Of a stretch of 64,000 bases of DNA, positions 18,996 through 37,441 are shown piece by piece. Below the pieces are notes generated by a model, which saw only the letters and a program-made list of their open reading frames with translations, had not been told where the DNA came from and ran no database searches. The position numbers and the translations under genes were made by a program. Every line of letters begins with the position of its first letter. The first letter of the stretch is position 1. Source of the DNA: Pseudopedobacter saltans DSM 12145 (GTDB lineage Bacteria; Bacteroidota; Bacteroidia; Sphingobacteriales; Sphingobacteriaceae); NCBI RefSeq assembly GCF_000190735.1, contig NC_015177.1:2046001-2110000 (forward strand), written 5' to 3'.

Positions 18996-19512
18996 TTATA
19001 ACATCGGTTTAGTACATGTGAAATTAATCAGTTTTCACAATATTCCTATTTTTTAAATCGCTTTTTTATTAAAATTAAACCATGGCTTAACTTCATGCAA
19101 ATACGAAACGAACTCGGACAAGCTACAAAGACGGAAAGCCTTGTGCAAGGGGAAAGAAAAGAGTAAAACAATGAAATATTGACAACAGAAGTCATTAACA
19201 CAGAGATCTTTCGACTCCGCTCCTTTAGATTTGTTATTGTTAAATTTAGAATGAGAAAGGAAGCAAAAGTACACTAAGACAAGCGCTCCGAGTTAATAAC
19301 TCATACGTTGATTCAGACTTTTGCCTCCCTTTCATCAAGAACTCAAATAGAAATTAGGGTTAATAACCCATTATCAAGGAGTTGAGTTAAATTGATGAGC
19401 TTCTCATTTCATTTCCCTAATATCAAATTTATGAAAAAGATCATTATTGGCATGACAGCATGGAGATGAGACAACAAAGATTAATTCATAGAACCGTACC
19501 AAGAATGCTTTA

Positions 19513-19560
19513 TGGCATTATAAGATTTGGAGACCCTGTCCCGACTTTACTTTGCATTCG
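19513..19560 (+). repeat. Truncated 5' end of the composite repeat element
   Basis: GGCATTATAAGATTTGG begins here as in the full copies and runs to GTCCCGACTTTAC. The sequence then switches to unrelated DNA where the other copies continue CGTCGGGAG. It marks a broken copy at the left margin of the array. Confidence 0.6.
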
Positions 19561-19619
19561 AACAAAAAGCATCGGAAACATAGAGAAGCTACCATTTTAT
19601 CACTTCTGTCCCTTCATTT

Positions 19620-19670
19620 TTTGGCCTTCTCCATGAGGGAGAAGGTGCCCAAAGGGCGGATGAGGGGCTA
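19620..19670 (+). repeat. REP-like palindrome (CTTCTCC-ATGA-GGGAGAAG type)
   Basis: CTTCTCCATGAGGGAGAAG is followed by GTGCCCAAAGGGCGGATGAGGGG, which contains a second small palindrome (GCCCAAAGGGC). The same element recurs at 36934-36981, at 37395-37441, and in diverged form at 44355-44540. It is a dispersed intergenic repeat. Confidence 0.7.
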
Positions 19671-19921
19671 CTTTCGAGAAAACCACGTATACTCTACCGA
19701 AGCGAGTTCGGGACAAGCTAATGAAGACGGAAAGCCTTGAGCAATAGAAAAGAAAAAGGTAAAACAATGAAATATTGACAGCAGAAGTCATTAACACAGA
19801 GATCCCTGCCGGCCGATACAAGACAGAGCTAAAGCAGGCGGGCTTCAACTACGCTCAGGATGACAGCATAGAGATGAGACAACGAAGATTAATTCACAGA
19901 ACCATCCCCAAGAGCACCTAT

Positions 19922-20174
19922 GACATTATAAGATTTGGAGACCCTGTCCCGACTTTACGTCGGGAGTAATCAGATAAATCTTTGTGCACAAACAGTAAAT
20001 AAGCAAATCCAAGCAATCCAATGTGCAGTAGAGAGTAACATAAAGCAATAACATTCACACATATCCGGATTGCACTAATTAAAGATTTATCCAGATGGAG
20101 CGACAAATGTTATACGCCACGGCTTTTTTGGATACTTTTTCAGCTGAAGGAAAAAGTATCTAAGCCTGTCTGGC
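19922..20174 (+). repeat. Composite structured repeat, copy 1
   Basis: This copy runs from CATTATAAGATTTGG to the AAGCC-GTCTGGC end. It holds a small hairpin CCCGAC-TTTAC-GTCGGG (19948-19964). A long nested inverted repeat follows, with outer arms ATAAATCTTT and AAAGATTTAT and inner arms GCAATCC and GGATTGC (core 19969-20096). A third hairpin is GATACTTTTT...AAAAAGTATC (20131-20160). Confidence 0.75.
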
Positions 20175-20353
20175 TATTGAAGACGGAAAGCCTTGTGCAT
20201 AAGAAAATATCAATGCAACACTTTACCTGTGAGGTCCCTGCCGGCCGATACAAGACAGAGCTAAGGCAGGCGGGCTTTGACTGCGCTCAGGATGACAGCG
20301 TGAAGATGAGACAACGAAGATTAATTCACAGAACCATACCAAGAACGATTTAT

Positions 20354-20640
20354 GGCATTATAAGATTTGGAAGCCGTAATCAGATAAATCTTTGTGCACA
20401 AACAGTAAACAAGCAAATCCAAGCAATCCAATGTGCAGTAGAGAGTAACATAAAGCAATAACATTCACACATATCCGGATTGCACTAATTAAAGATTTAT
20501 CCAGATGGAGCGACAAATGTTATACGCCACGGCTTTTTTGGATACTTTTTCAGCTGGAGGAAAAATGCTTCAGCATTCTTGAAGGCCAAACAGAAATATA
20601 AAGGCCTTCTGAAAAAAGTTTCTAGGCCAGCCGCCGGCCA
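20354..20640 (+). repeat. Composite structured repeat, copy 2
   Basis: This has the same layout as copy 1, with the core at 20379-20506, 410 bp after the core of copy 1. The CCCGAC...GTCGGG hairpin is missing. The third hairpin is expanded by two nested stems (ATGCTTCAGCAT and GAAGGCC...GGCCTTC) before TCTAGGCC. Confidence 0.75.
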
Positions 20641-21041
20641 TGAGGCGGACTAACTTTCATGCTTTGCATAAGCAGCATTCCTTTGTTCAGAAACAACTAA
20701 AAGAATTATCCTAAAAAACGGGATTTGTCCTTTTTTACTAAAAATGCGGAGCATTCTTGAGGGCAAAATAAAAACATAAAATACTTTCTAAAAAAAGAAC
20801 CAGGCCCGTCTGGATCCCGAAACGAGTTCGGGACAAGCTAATGAAGACGGAAAGCCTTGAGCAATAGAAAAGAAAAAGGTAAAACAATGAAATATTGACA
20901 GCAGAAGTCATTAACACAGAGATCCCTGCCGGCCGATACAAAACAGAGCTAAAGCAGGCGGGCTTCAACTACGCTCAGGATGACAGCATAGAGATGAGAC
21001 AACGAAGATTAATTCACAGAACCATCCCCAAGAGCACCTAT

Positions 21042-21350
21042 GACATTATAAGATTTGGAGACCCTGCCCCGACTTTACGTCGGGAGTAATCAGATAAATC
21101 TTTGTGCGCAAACAGCAAATAACCAACAACCAAGCAATCCAATGTGCTGCAAAAAGCATCACAAAGCAATGACATTCGCACATATCCGGATTACACTGAT
21201 TAAAGATTTATTCAGATGGAGCGACAAATGTTATACGCCACGGCTTTTTTGGATACTTTTTCAGCTGAAGGAAAAATGCTTCAGCATTCTTGAAGGCCAA
21301 ACAGAAATATAAAGGCCTTCTGAAAAAAGTTTCTAGGCCAGCCGCCGGCC
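21042..21350 (+). repeat. Composite structured repeat, copy 3
   Basis: The core lies at 21089-21217. The tail, including the expanded third hairpin and the flanking CCGCCGGCCATGAGGCGG, is essentially identical to that of copy 2. This indicates a recent duplication of a block of about 700 bp. Confidence 0.75.
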
Positions 21351-21570
21351 ATGAGGCGGACTAACTTTCATGCTTTGTATCACACCACTATAACAGCACA
21401 TTCCAAATTCCCTAAACTTATTTTTCTTTTTATAAAAAAACAGCAAACCGACTGATAATCTATATGTTAATAAAAACACGCATGTTAACAAATAAATAAC
21501 AACAAAACAACAAACTATTGATTTACAAAACCTTACATTTATATAGCTTTTCATCTTAAACAACAACAAT

Positions 21571-22044
21571 ATGAGTTGGAGAAAATTCAGTGGAGAAAAG
21601 ATCAATCTGCCCATAACAACAGAAGTAGAAACGGCTATAAAAAAAGAAAATGAAAAAGGTAACAAACTCAAAGTTTGTATAGGCACAGACTCACAGGTAA
21701 AAGGTTCAACTATTCATTTTGCAACGGCAATAGTTTTTTTACGCGAGCACAAAGGTGGATTCATGTATATCAACCAGGACAGATATACCATGAAAATGGG
21801 AATAAAAGAACGCATGCTGGCAGAAGTTCAGAAATCTATAGAAACAGCTTATGCACTATGTGATTTATTAGACACCTACAATGTAGAACTTGAAGTACAT
21901 GCCGATATCAACACAAGCCCTCAATTCAAATCAAACGCAGCTTTACACGAAGCGATGGGTTACATTTTAAGCATGGGATTTGTATTCAAGGCAAAACCCG
22001 AAGCTTTTGCCAGCTCTACCTGCGCCAATAAACTGGTGCAGTAG
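21571..22044 (+). CDS. RNase H-like YkuK-family protein (DUF458)
   Basis: This 157-residue protein matches the YkuK/DUF458 family, which has a ribonuclease H-like fold and no firmly known function. The diagnostic blocks are VCIGTDSQVKG (about 35-45, with the first metal-binding Asp), HFATAIVFLREHKGG, and LEVHADINTSPQFKSN (about 111-126). No signal peptide is present. It is the only real gene inside the repeat array. The 3' part of a repeat element begins within 10 bp of its stop, so the repeat may supply its transcript end. Confidence 0.85.
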   Translation: MSWRKFSGEKINLPITTEVETAIKKENEKGNKLKVCIGTDSQVKGSTIHFATAIVFLREHKGGFMYINQDRYTMKMGIKERMLAEVQKSIETAYALCDLLDTYNVELEVHADINTSPQFKSNAALHEAMGYILSMGFVFKAKPEAFASSTCANKLVQ

Positions 22045-22051
22045 TGATAAA

Positions 22052-22170
22052 AACATTAACATTCACACATATCCGGATTGCACCAATTAAAGATTTATTC
22101 AGATGGAACGACAAAGATTATACGGCCTAAGCATTTTGGTCCTTTTTTGCTCAAAAAGGACTAGGCCTGT
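22052..22170 (+). repeat. Composite structured repeat, 3' part only
   Basis: Only the right half is present: inner right arm GGATTGC, outer right arm AAAGATTTAT, then the third hairpin GTCCTTTTTT-GCTC-AAAAAGGAC and TAGGCC. The left half is replaced by the end of the YkuK-family gene. Confidence 0.65.
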
Positions 22171-22354
22171 CTGGCCATTGAAGACGGAAAGCCTTGTGCA
22201 TAAGAAAATATCAATGCAACACTTTACCTGTGAGGTCCCTGCCAGCCGATACAAGACAGAGCTAAGGCAGGTGGGCTTCGGCTGTCCTCAGGATGACGAG
22301 GTCAGAGTAAATGCAATACACTCCAGCCAACTAAAAATCCACAAGAACGCCCAC

Positions 22355-22560
22355 GGCATTTTAAGATTTGGATAGCCTGTCCCGACTTTACGTCGGGAGT
22401 AATCAGATAAATATTTGTGTACAAACGACCAATAAGCAAATCCAAGCAATCCAATGTGCTCCAAAAAGTGACATAAAGCAGTAACATTCACACATATCCG
22501 GATTGCACCAATTAAAGATTTATTTAGATGGAGCGACAAAGATTATACGGCCTAAGCACT
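22355..22560 (+). repeat. Composite structured repeat, copy 4 (3' truncated)
   Basis: The core is at 22402-22529, with the CCCGAC...GTCGGG hairpin before it. The element breaks off after GGCCTAAGCACTTTGG, where the other copies have the third hairpin. Confidence 0.65.
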
Positions 22561-22638
22561 TTGGAACGAGTCATGAAGTGAAATGACCATTTTTAGATGG
22601 ACACTGCAAATTCATTATTCTTTTGATAGTGCGAATCT

Positions 22639-22860
22639 GGCATTATAAGATTTGGAAGAGGAATCGGATAAATCTTTGTGCACAAACAGCAAATAACCAC
22701 TAACCTAGCAATCCAATGTGCTGCAAAAAGTAACATAAAGCAGTAACATTCACACATATCCGGATTGCACCAATTAAAGATTTATTCAGATGGAACGACA
22801 AAGATTATACGGCCTAAGCATTTTGGTCCTTTTTTGCTCAAAAAGGACTAGGCCTGTCTG
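22639..22860 (+). repeat. Composite structured repeat, copy 5
   Basis: The core is at 22663-22791. The third hairpin is GTCCTTTTTT-GCTC-AAAAAGGAC, followed by TAGGCC. The small CCCGAC hairpin is absent, as in copy 2. Confidence 0.7.
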
Positions 22861-23041
22861 GCCATTGAAGACGGAAAGCCTTGTGCATAAGAAAATATCA
22901 ATGCAACACTTTACCTGTGAGGTCCCTGCCAGCCGATACAAGACAGAGCTAAGGCAGGCGGGCTTCGGCTGTCCTCAGGATGACGAGGCCAGAGTAAATG
23001 CAGTACACTCCAGCCAACTAAAAATCCACAAGAACGCCCAC

Positions 23042-23287
23042 GGCATGATAAGATTTGGAGTCCCTGTCCCGACTTTACGTCGGGAGTAATCAGATAAATA
23101 TTTGTGTACAAACGACCAATAAGCAAATCCAAGCAATCCAATGTGCTCCAAAAAGTGACATAAAGCAGTAACATTCACACATATCCGGATTGCACCAATT
23201 AAAGATTTATTTAGATGGAGCGACAAAGATTATACGGCCTAAGCATTTTGGTCCTTTTTTGCTCAAAAAGGACTAGGCCCGTCTGGC
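23042..23287 (+). repeat. Composite structured repeat, copy 6
   Basis: This is a complete copy with the small hairpin, the core at 23089-23216 and the GTCC...GGAC third hairpin. It is nearly identical to copy 4 over their shared part. Confidence 0.7.
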
Positions 23288-36933: not shown

Positions 36934-36981
36934 TCCCCTTCTCCATGAGGGAGAAGGTGTCCAACGGACGGATGAGGGGCT
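36934..36981 (+). repeat. REP-like palindrome, left copy of a direct repeat
   Basis: CTTCTCCATGAGGGAGAAG is followed by GTGTCCAACGGACGGATGAGGGG. Together with the 30 bp before it (ATCACTACTATCCATTCATC), it is repeated almost exactly at 37370-37441. Confidence 0.7.
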
Positions 36982-37050: not shown

Positions 37051-37324
37051 CACAGGGCTTTCCGTCCTCATTAGCTTGTCCCGAACTCGCTTCGGGAGCC
37101 GGACAGGGCCTAGTTCTTTCCCTTCAGCTGGAAAGAACCAAAGAGCCGTCGGCGAATAATCTTTGTTGCTTCATCTCAATCAATCTTTTGTGAATGCAAT
37201 CTCCACACGTGTGTATGGTAGTGGTTTATTGTTGTTTATGCTCCACGTCAGATTGCGGTGGCAGTGCTTTATCTAGGATCTGCAAAAAGATTGATTGGAT
37301 TACGCTGCCAAATCTTATTATGCC
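37051..37324 (-). repeat. Diverged inverted copy of the composite structured repeat
   Basis: Read on the minus strand it starts CATAATAAGATTTGGCAGCGTAATC like the array copies. The outer arms are CAATCAATCTTTT/AAAAGATTGATTG (37285-37297 and 37177-37189), the inner arms GCAATCT/AGATTGC (37250-37256 and 37196-37202), and the third hairpin GTTCTTTCC...GAAAGAAC (37113-37138). TAGGCC and the GACGGAAAGCC module follow. The arm bases differ from the array copies but remain paired. Confidence 0.75.
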
Positions 37325-37394: not shown

Positions 37395-37441
37395 TTCCCC
37401 TTCTCCATGAGGGAGAAGGTGTCCAAAGGACGGATGAGGGG
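37395..37441 (+). repeat. REP-like palindrome, right copy of a direct repeat
   Basis: CTTCTCCATGAGGGAGAAG is followed by GTGTCCAAAGGACGGATGAGGGG, the right member of the pair that flanks the inverted composite repeat. Confidence 0.7.

Follow-up and report, generated by a model that had tools for sequence, protein, structure and literature searches.

The repeated DNA at 19.5–23.3 kb of the window—the 64,000-nucleotide stretch of Pseudopedobacter saltans DSM 12145 analysed here, i.e. positions 2,046,001–2,110,000 of the single 4.64-Mb contig NC_015177.1—raises the question of what kind of element it is and in which physical form this element is used. A sequence-only reading had seen six nearly complete copies and two fragments of a composite hairpin repeat of no recognised family, with base changes on both sides of its arms that pointed to selection on folding, be it in a structured RNA or in a hairpin-dependent mobile element. 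Searches with nhmmer and a covariance model return the same inventory, six full cores and two fragments of one element, with a diverged copy lying separately at 37.1 kb, and the covariation is significant once several species are compared. The answer that we tentatively favour, and to which we give not quite an even chance, is a non-autonomous intergenic palindromic repeat, similar to miniature inverted-repeat transposable elements and in the manner of ERIC and YPAL, which has so far been found only in the Sphingobacteriaceae and the working form of which would be one folded single strand.

The core of the element extends from GGC to GCC over about 175 nt, or 197 nt where it includes an optional CCCGAC-TTTAC-GTCGGG hairpin. 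From the outside inwards, its stems are GGC/GCC, a variable 5-bp stem, a near-invariant TTTG/CAAA, a 9–10-bp stem, a 7–8-bp stem and an apical region closed by GTG/CAC. The 9–10-bp and 7–8-bp stems are the outer arms (ATAAATCTTT/AAAGATTTAT) and inner arms (GCAATCC/GGATTGC) seen earlier, and they are present as described, as are the paired changes at 37.1 kb (CAATCAATC../..GATTGATTG and GCAATCT/AGATTGC). The same reading had not mentioned the outermost GGC/GCC plus TATAA/TTATA stem, which makes the whole core one rod, nor the optional fourth hairpin, nor a pseudoknot partner for the loop of the third hairpin. Together, GGC..GCC, TATAA/TTATA and TTTG/CAAA close the rod as terminal inverted repeats. 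The 37.1-kb copy together with the hairpins downstream of it, a stretch of 291 nt, has a folding z of −5.55 as RNA and −4.75 as DNA. Among 136 copies (seven duplicate loci having been dropped), 112 match over 173–182 nt, 6 are shorter and 18 longer, with full-length spans being partly built in because Infernal aligns to the whole model by default; several genomes from two other genera share shorter forms of about 154–167 nt. Across genera, the internal loops and mismatches that separate the stems hold their place and size (one alignment behind this anatomy omits L037, which has an arm deletion, and L097, which is the same as L061).

Covariation is thin in the genome of P. saltans alone, with 4 cells on 4 pairs among 25 copies. 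With 74 distinct rows from several species, two-sided change occurs in 29 of 34 pairs (221 cells versus 53 for shuffled partners), and with 134 rows in 31 of 34 (547 cells versus 126.5 shuffled and 60–139 for slid partners), both alignments being fitted to the model; alignment A5 comprises the top 150 among 170 matches. A structure-blind MAFFT alignment of 33 distinct rows (A4), with pairs taken from the RNAalifold structure, has 18 of 19 pairs changing on both sides (101 cells versus 31.4 shuffled and 13–36 slid); it covers only the outer stems and the 9–10-bp stem, because several rows have a misaligned inner stem. For 132 distinct rows, on a FastTree phylogeny built from unpaired columns only, parsimony places about 149 two-sided pair-keeping changes on 30 of the 34 pairs, as against 3–16 for slid partners. 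Within six genomes, 2.8% of paired and 12.7% of unpaired cells vary. Such paired changes on both sides suggest that the folded single strand itself is in use.

Covariation could also be purely mutational, a possibility that the sequence-only reading had not named: template switching at quasi-palindromes, a published mechanism (PMC8794818), would use one arm as the template for the other and so keep the arms complementary even if folding were not selected. The tree offers this explanation some support, since two-sided changes outnumber the one-sided pair-keeping ones (66), and in 28 of 97 branch–helix groups two to seven pairs change at once. The other 69 of the 97, however, are single-pair changes, and the internal loops and mismatches have not been corrected to a perfect palindrome. 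Wobbles are, moreover, strand-asymmetric: G-T exceeds A-C by 28 to 6 cells between species (20 to 3 in a second set), by 57 to 19 when counted as tree events (exact test, p 1.5e-5) and by 35 to 19 within six genomes (exact test, p 0.04), the last being the count least affected by model fitting, yet the weakest. Symmetric template correction, just like a double-stranded DNA cruciform, should yield about equal numbers of the two, and the G-T excess therefore points to one folding strand. On balance, we regard a purely mutational origin as improbable.

Beyond the rod, a short strand immediately 3' of it complements the third hairpin's loop, in several strand/loop versions: TTGAT/ATCAA, TTGAA/TTCAA, TTGAC/GTCAA, CGGCT/AGCTG, GCGGCT/AGCTGC and AGCA/TGCT. 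Over 59 distinct strand–loop pairs, complementarity scores 9.68 versus 7.95 ± 0.26 for shuffled partners, a value reached by none of 1000 shuffles, with some rows having no strand–loop pairing; the test used 90 copies, once downstream flanks that were identical or shorter than 60 nt had been removed, and skipped 26 copies with no simple hairpin or with a hairpin reaching into the first letters. Of 116 distinct flanks, 72 have, in the 60 letters that follow the first six, a perfect 5-letter complement to part of those six, as against 12.1 expected with shuffled letters. Many copies also carry, by sight, a further putative paired element after the pseudoknot (CCGTCT/AGACGG or CCGCC/GGCGG). The third hairpin had been said to keep its pairing as GATAC..GTATC, GTCC..GGAC or GTTC..GAAC; all three forms exist, but not every copy conforms, as the 3' arm is displaced by an insert of about 50 nt in cores 20354 and 21042 and core 22355 has a different sequence at this position. 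Elsewhere, no normal rod end precedes the pseudoknot hairpin module (TTGATTTTTG..ATCAAG..) at L216 about 13094, L201 and L212 (minus strand), which is why this module may be an independent repeat.

The working form of the element would thus be the rod of about 175 nt plus a hairpin, the loop of which pairs with the bases that directly follow the rod, i.e. an H-type pseudoknot, with the folded strand being either RNA or single-stranded DNA (ssDNA). A trans-acting enzyme or RNA-binding factor that recognizes this folded strand may drive the spread of the element, and arrays might then grow by local tandem duplication. Our inferences here concern the trans-acting factor, whether the element is actively mobile and what kind of strand it uses. 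Strand asymmetry and pseudoknot lean towards a folded single strand, RNA or ssDNA; that copies are dispersed between genes, vary in number and were amplified in particular species leans towards a mobile or repeat-type element.

How the copies are distributed bears on this second aspect. The covariance model R1 was built from 25 copies of the P. saltans genome, and R2 is the model used for wider scans; in P. saltans itself R2 has 34 matches, some of them partial, in about a dozen places, mostly clusters, and copies also occur in many other species, so that we are not looking at one recent tandem expansion. R1 has matches in 27 of 201 genomes of the family, and R2 in 67 of 350 sampled genomes of the order, all 67 in Sphingobacteriaceae (the family being assigned via named Pedobacter matches) and one of them, G011, with a match only at E 2.7e-4. 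In a sample of the phylum, 3 of 395 genomes have R2 matches, all three again in Sphingobacteriaceae. Named carriers, identified by the model on their loci, are P. cryophilus, P. mendelii, P. miscanthi and Leaf170 of the genus Pedobacter, and further Pedobacter carriers are P. puniceum, P. glucosidilyticus and Leaf41. Eight genomes have 2–34 matches each, and numbers range from 0 to 34 across the genus; R1 and R2 scans revealed no copies in G040 and G054, close relatives of the same genus. From a total of 86 GTDB stretches found by a short pattern, R1 was run on 41, together with 3 viral contigs; four genomic loci, all Pedobacter or Sphingobacteriales, reached E 0.001 and the other 37 missed this threshold. 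Three of these four span the whole model and L125 is cut off at the end of the locus. Viral carriage was discarded, as the model confirmed none of the three viral contigs matched by the pattern (best E 0.19). Neither plasmids, queried by blastn with copies from P. saltans and P. glucosidilyticus, nor phages, queried with copies from P. saltans and G081, gave a match.

The copies are essentially intergenic. Of 139 copies (five loci dropped as duplicates), 12 overlap an open reading frame (ORF) of at least 100 amino acids and 3 one of at least 150; two of these three are the upstream extension of a thioredoxin-like gene and the third has no Pfam match. A 609-amino-acid frame at L057 643–2472 runs antisense through two copies, and only its residues about 455–585 match thioredoxin-type families. 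Flanking-gene orientation shows no bias over the 79 clusters that have called ORFs on either side: it is same/same in 25, same/opposite in 21, opposite/same in 18 and opposite/opposite in 15 (p 0.43; at least three sites are counted twice). With contexts so mixed, a common neighbour gene was rejected, as was a leader or terminator role. Two contexts, dnaK–DUF1304 and accD–YciI-like (gene names read from the sequence), do recur at apparently orthologous sites. Within 1 kb of each other, neighbouring copies stand head-to-tail in 50 of 50 cases. The cobalamin riboswitch RF00174 (L032 4166–4366, 103.6 bits) adjoins a four-copy cluster in P. saltans, and a sub-threshold match to Flavo-1 RNA (36.2 of 42 bits) lies beside the element at L190 1307–1373 on the minus strand.

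Could the copies instead be a multi-copy structured non-coding RNA family, transcribed so that rod and pseudoknot bind a protein or another RNA, with arrays raising the dosage? The one-strand wobble bias and the covarying pseudoknot would fit this, as would unpaired stretches that recur across species—including a single-stranded motif of about TTGYAGAAACTTTCATAAAGCAC, seen by eye in two loops of each rod—and, upstream of the rods, a block of some 25 nt with weak conservation. Against such a family stand the lack of a common neighbour gene, the variation in match number even inside the genus and the absence of any Rfam match; nor did the upstream flanks contain a promoter-like motif by eye, no promoter scan having been run. 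Screened with the whole Rfam 15 library, the window has 0 matches at curated thresholds, and a permissive search of the cluster and ten loci put nothing over the copies beyond chance-level snoRNA and intron matches, in agreement with the earlier impression that no recognised family was involved. No RNA or repeat catalogue searched contains this hairpin family of about 175 nt, nor did we find it described in the open-licence PMC literature, subscription papers being mostly outside that search. All in all, we consider an RNA family of this kind rather unlikely.

That copies are dispersed with no preference for particular genes, differ between species in sequence and number and are missing from close relatives fits a spreading repeat; recognition of one folded strand fits the preservation of fold and loops, the pseudoknot and the strand bias. 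Taken together, these points lead us to favour a non-autonomous element kept by a trans-acting factor. Such a factor might be an HUH endonuclease of the Y1 or RAYT type, which would make the repeat a very large REP-like element, i.e. a special case of the preferred reading with a named enzyme. Matches to the RAYT model NF047646 are indeed found in 25 of 27 R1 carriers versus 83 of 174 other genomes; with R2 carriers added, the same 201 genomes give 38 of 42 versus 70 of 159, and outside the genus of P. saltans the figures are 22 of 26 versus 68 of 157 (p 9e-5; carriers hand-counted in both cases). Among the genomes inspected for this, only G103 (two), G113 and G001 have RAYT-type genes 2–3 kb from copies, near but not flanking. 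The carrier counts, however, ignore relatedness, which confounds them; a RAYT match at E 0.001 is missing from the carriers G042, G107, G119 and G163, and the non-carriers G040 and G054 have several. RAYT genes are thus associated with carriers but not consistently co-located with copies: in eight genomes, 3 of 40 Y1 genes are within 5 kb of a listed copy versus about 1.1 expected (hand count; p 0.10), and Y1_Tnp occurs in all 18 genomes of the genus, carriers or not. The repeat also lacks the 20–40-nt size of REPs and a conserved GTAG/CGTC at the stem foot, and we think this named enzyme quite improbable. A broader proposal, which we find possible though doubtful, is a new class of mobile element in the Bacteroidota that would depend on its hairpin and pseudoknot and be moved or copied as a folded single strand (RNA or ssDNA), recognized by a putative enzyme, possibly of the RAYT type, in which the fast-changing pseudoknot hairpin would be an exchangeable recognition module on a conserved 175-nt rod.

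Several observations weigh against a spreading, non-autonomous repeat that works as a folded strand. Neither a proven mobilizing enzyme nor an autonomous parent came to light, and no target duplication or clean filled/empty site was seen. The search for a parent was made by way of the ends, in the P. saltans genome, and one gene-bearing gap was opened (L034); by reading the sequence, this gap contains a histidine-kinase-like ORF. Differences in presence or absence were seen, but with rearranged flanks. Between G108 and P. puniceum (G084), all five comparable sites are shared, four of them differing in copy number, and a single site has a copy only in G108, again with rearranged flanks and no clean insertion site (two G108 clusters lie outside the compared stretch); since sites are thus mostly common to two close species, recent transposition is not demonstrated. 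At 27 DUF1304-like loci, dnaK was recognized within reach in 11, and of these 11 gaps two contain a rod (G303 and G184), one only the flanks (G094) and eight nothing; elsewhere, this gap holds eight copies in G081 and one each in G013 and G240. In G094 (L274, about 1323–1332), the rod is missing between short CAG repeats, with the flanks GGCCTCAGCC and the pseudoknot hairpin remaining. The extents of the repeat around the rod vary between lineages, and the ends of the element are therefore not fixed. Strand asymmetry and pseudoknot could equally well belong to a transcribed RNA. In the fold itself, the apical helices 6 and 7 are poorly kept (paired in 42.5% and 79.9% of cells), the tree has 151 changes to or from an unpaired state (slid controls, 283–386), and most alignments are model-fitted, which favours G-U pairs.

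Where, then, does the element stand among known systems? Integron attC sites fold as single-strand hairpins, stand in head-to-tail arrays and have conserved extra-helical bases as well as RYYYAAC/GTTRRRY end boxes. The Pedobacter repeat shares the first three of these features, but its rod ends in GGC..GCC rather than in R boxes with GTT/AAC and the arrays read contain no gene cassettes—the spacers of the eight-copy array in G081 have no ORF above 104 amino acids, and the cluster in the window encloses one host gene—so that these features rule out an attC array. With the REP/BIME elements and their RAYT genes it has in common dispersed hairpins, species-specific amplification and the frequency of RAYT genes in carriers. 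REPs are, however, reported to be 20–40 bp long and to alternate in orientation within BIMEs, in contrast to a head-to-tail repeat of 175 nt, and a classical REP is ruled out by the size of the rod, its GGC foot with variable upstream letters and the missing GTAG/CGTC. ERIC (IRU, RU-1), reported as 127 bp and enterobacterial, is likewise a non-coding, intergenic palindromic element with tens to hundreds of copies common to related species; the Pedobacter family is longer, has no terminal TA, belongs to another phylum and differs by its arrays, its pseudoknot and the many compensatory changes documented here. Pedo-repair RNA, listed as RF01715 in PMC2864571, also combines Pedobacter with a predicted structure, but the Rfam 15 scan of the window and ten other loci gave no match of this RNA to the copies. 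Closest in description are the Yersinia palindromic sequences (YPAL, RU-2), which PMC2229807 presents as intergenic sequences of about 168 bp with internal inverted repeats and without terminal TA, reported from Yersinia and Erwinia with target duplications of 3–26 bp. Size, intergenic sites, internal inverted repeats and termini without TA agree, whereas the covarying pseudoknot, the head-to-tail arrays and the lack of a demonstrated target duplication set the Pedobacter family apart, the comparison being one of descriptions and not of sequences. By analogy, the element probably resembles ERIC in how it works and, given its size and the lack of a terminal TA, YPAL/RU-2 above all; as target duplication and parent are not shown, we file it as a new family of the ERIC/YPAL kind and not as a member of either.

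The copies in the window are listed in table 1. The model match of the 3'-part fragment overlaps the 3' end of the RNase H-like gene. Between the rods lie six ACAGAGCTAAGGCAGGCGGGCTTCGACTGCGCTCA-type sequences of 35 nt (family D8; starts at 19823, 20255, 20943, 22256, 22943 and 23417), which to our mind resemble widespread intergenic repeats of the Bacteroidota. A separate repeat, CTTCTCCATGAGGGAGAAGGTGYCCAA..CGGATGAGGGG, which we take to be of a type seen in many bacteria, occurs three times near copies (about 19625–19668, 36936–36979 and 37397–37441).

Table 1. Copies of the repeat and associated features, in window positions.
Feature	Position	Strand	Support
5'-end fragment of core (GGCATTATAAGATTTGGA...), then flank-type sequence	about 19509..19762	+	nhmmer E 4.7e-10; 5'-end motif at genome 2065514-2065530
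Core copy 1, with optional CCCGAC-TTTAC-GTCGGG hairpin	19922..20118	+	166.6 bits, model R2
Pseudoknot module of copy 1: CGGCT strand, T run, hairpin GATACTTTTT-CAGCTGAAGG-AAAAAGTATC, AGCTG in loop	20119..20163	+	sequence; pairing tested over copies
Third hairpin of copy 1, GATAC..GTATC type	20131-20160	+	sequence
Core copy 2	20354..20528	+	model matches
Core copy 3, with optional hairpin	21042..21239	+	model matches
Host gene between copies, RNase H-like, outside the repeat	21571..22044	+	PF04308
3'-part fragment of core, 5' half replaced by end of RNase H-like gene	21970..22127	+	50.2 bits
Third hairpin, GTCC..GGAC type, loop TGCT complementary to upstream AGCA	22139..22161	+	
Core copy 4, with optional hairpin; without simple third hairpin	22355..22551	+	
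Core copy 5 (to 22814 in R2 match)	22639..22813	+	181.5 bits
Third hairpin of copy 5, GTCC..GGAC type	22826..22848	+	
Core copy 6, with optional hairpin	23042..23238	+	
Third hairpin of copy 6, GTCC..GGAC type	23251..23273	+	
Diverged core copy, paired changes in both arms	37151..37324	-	145.2 bits
Third hairpin of diverged copy (GTTCTTTCC..GGGAAAGAAC, GTTC..GAAC type); loop AGCTG pairs with upstream CGGCT	37113..37138	-	

As a rule, large palindromic repeats are taken to be inert or are used as markers for PCR. Here, such a repeat displays about 149 inferred compensatory changes within one bacterial family, together with a covarying pseudoknot and strand asymmetry. It thus becomes testable in Pedobacter whether these repeats are selected as folded RNA, are selected as folded ssDNA or are merely corrected by template switching, with the covariance model marking up to 34 places per genome.

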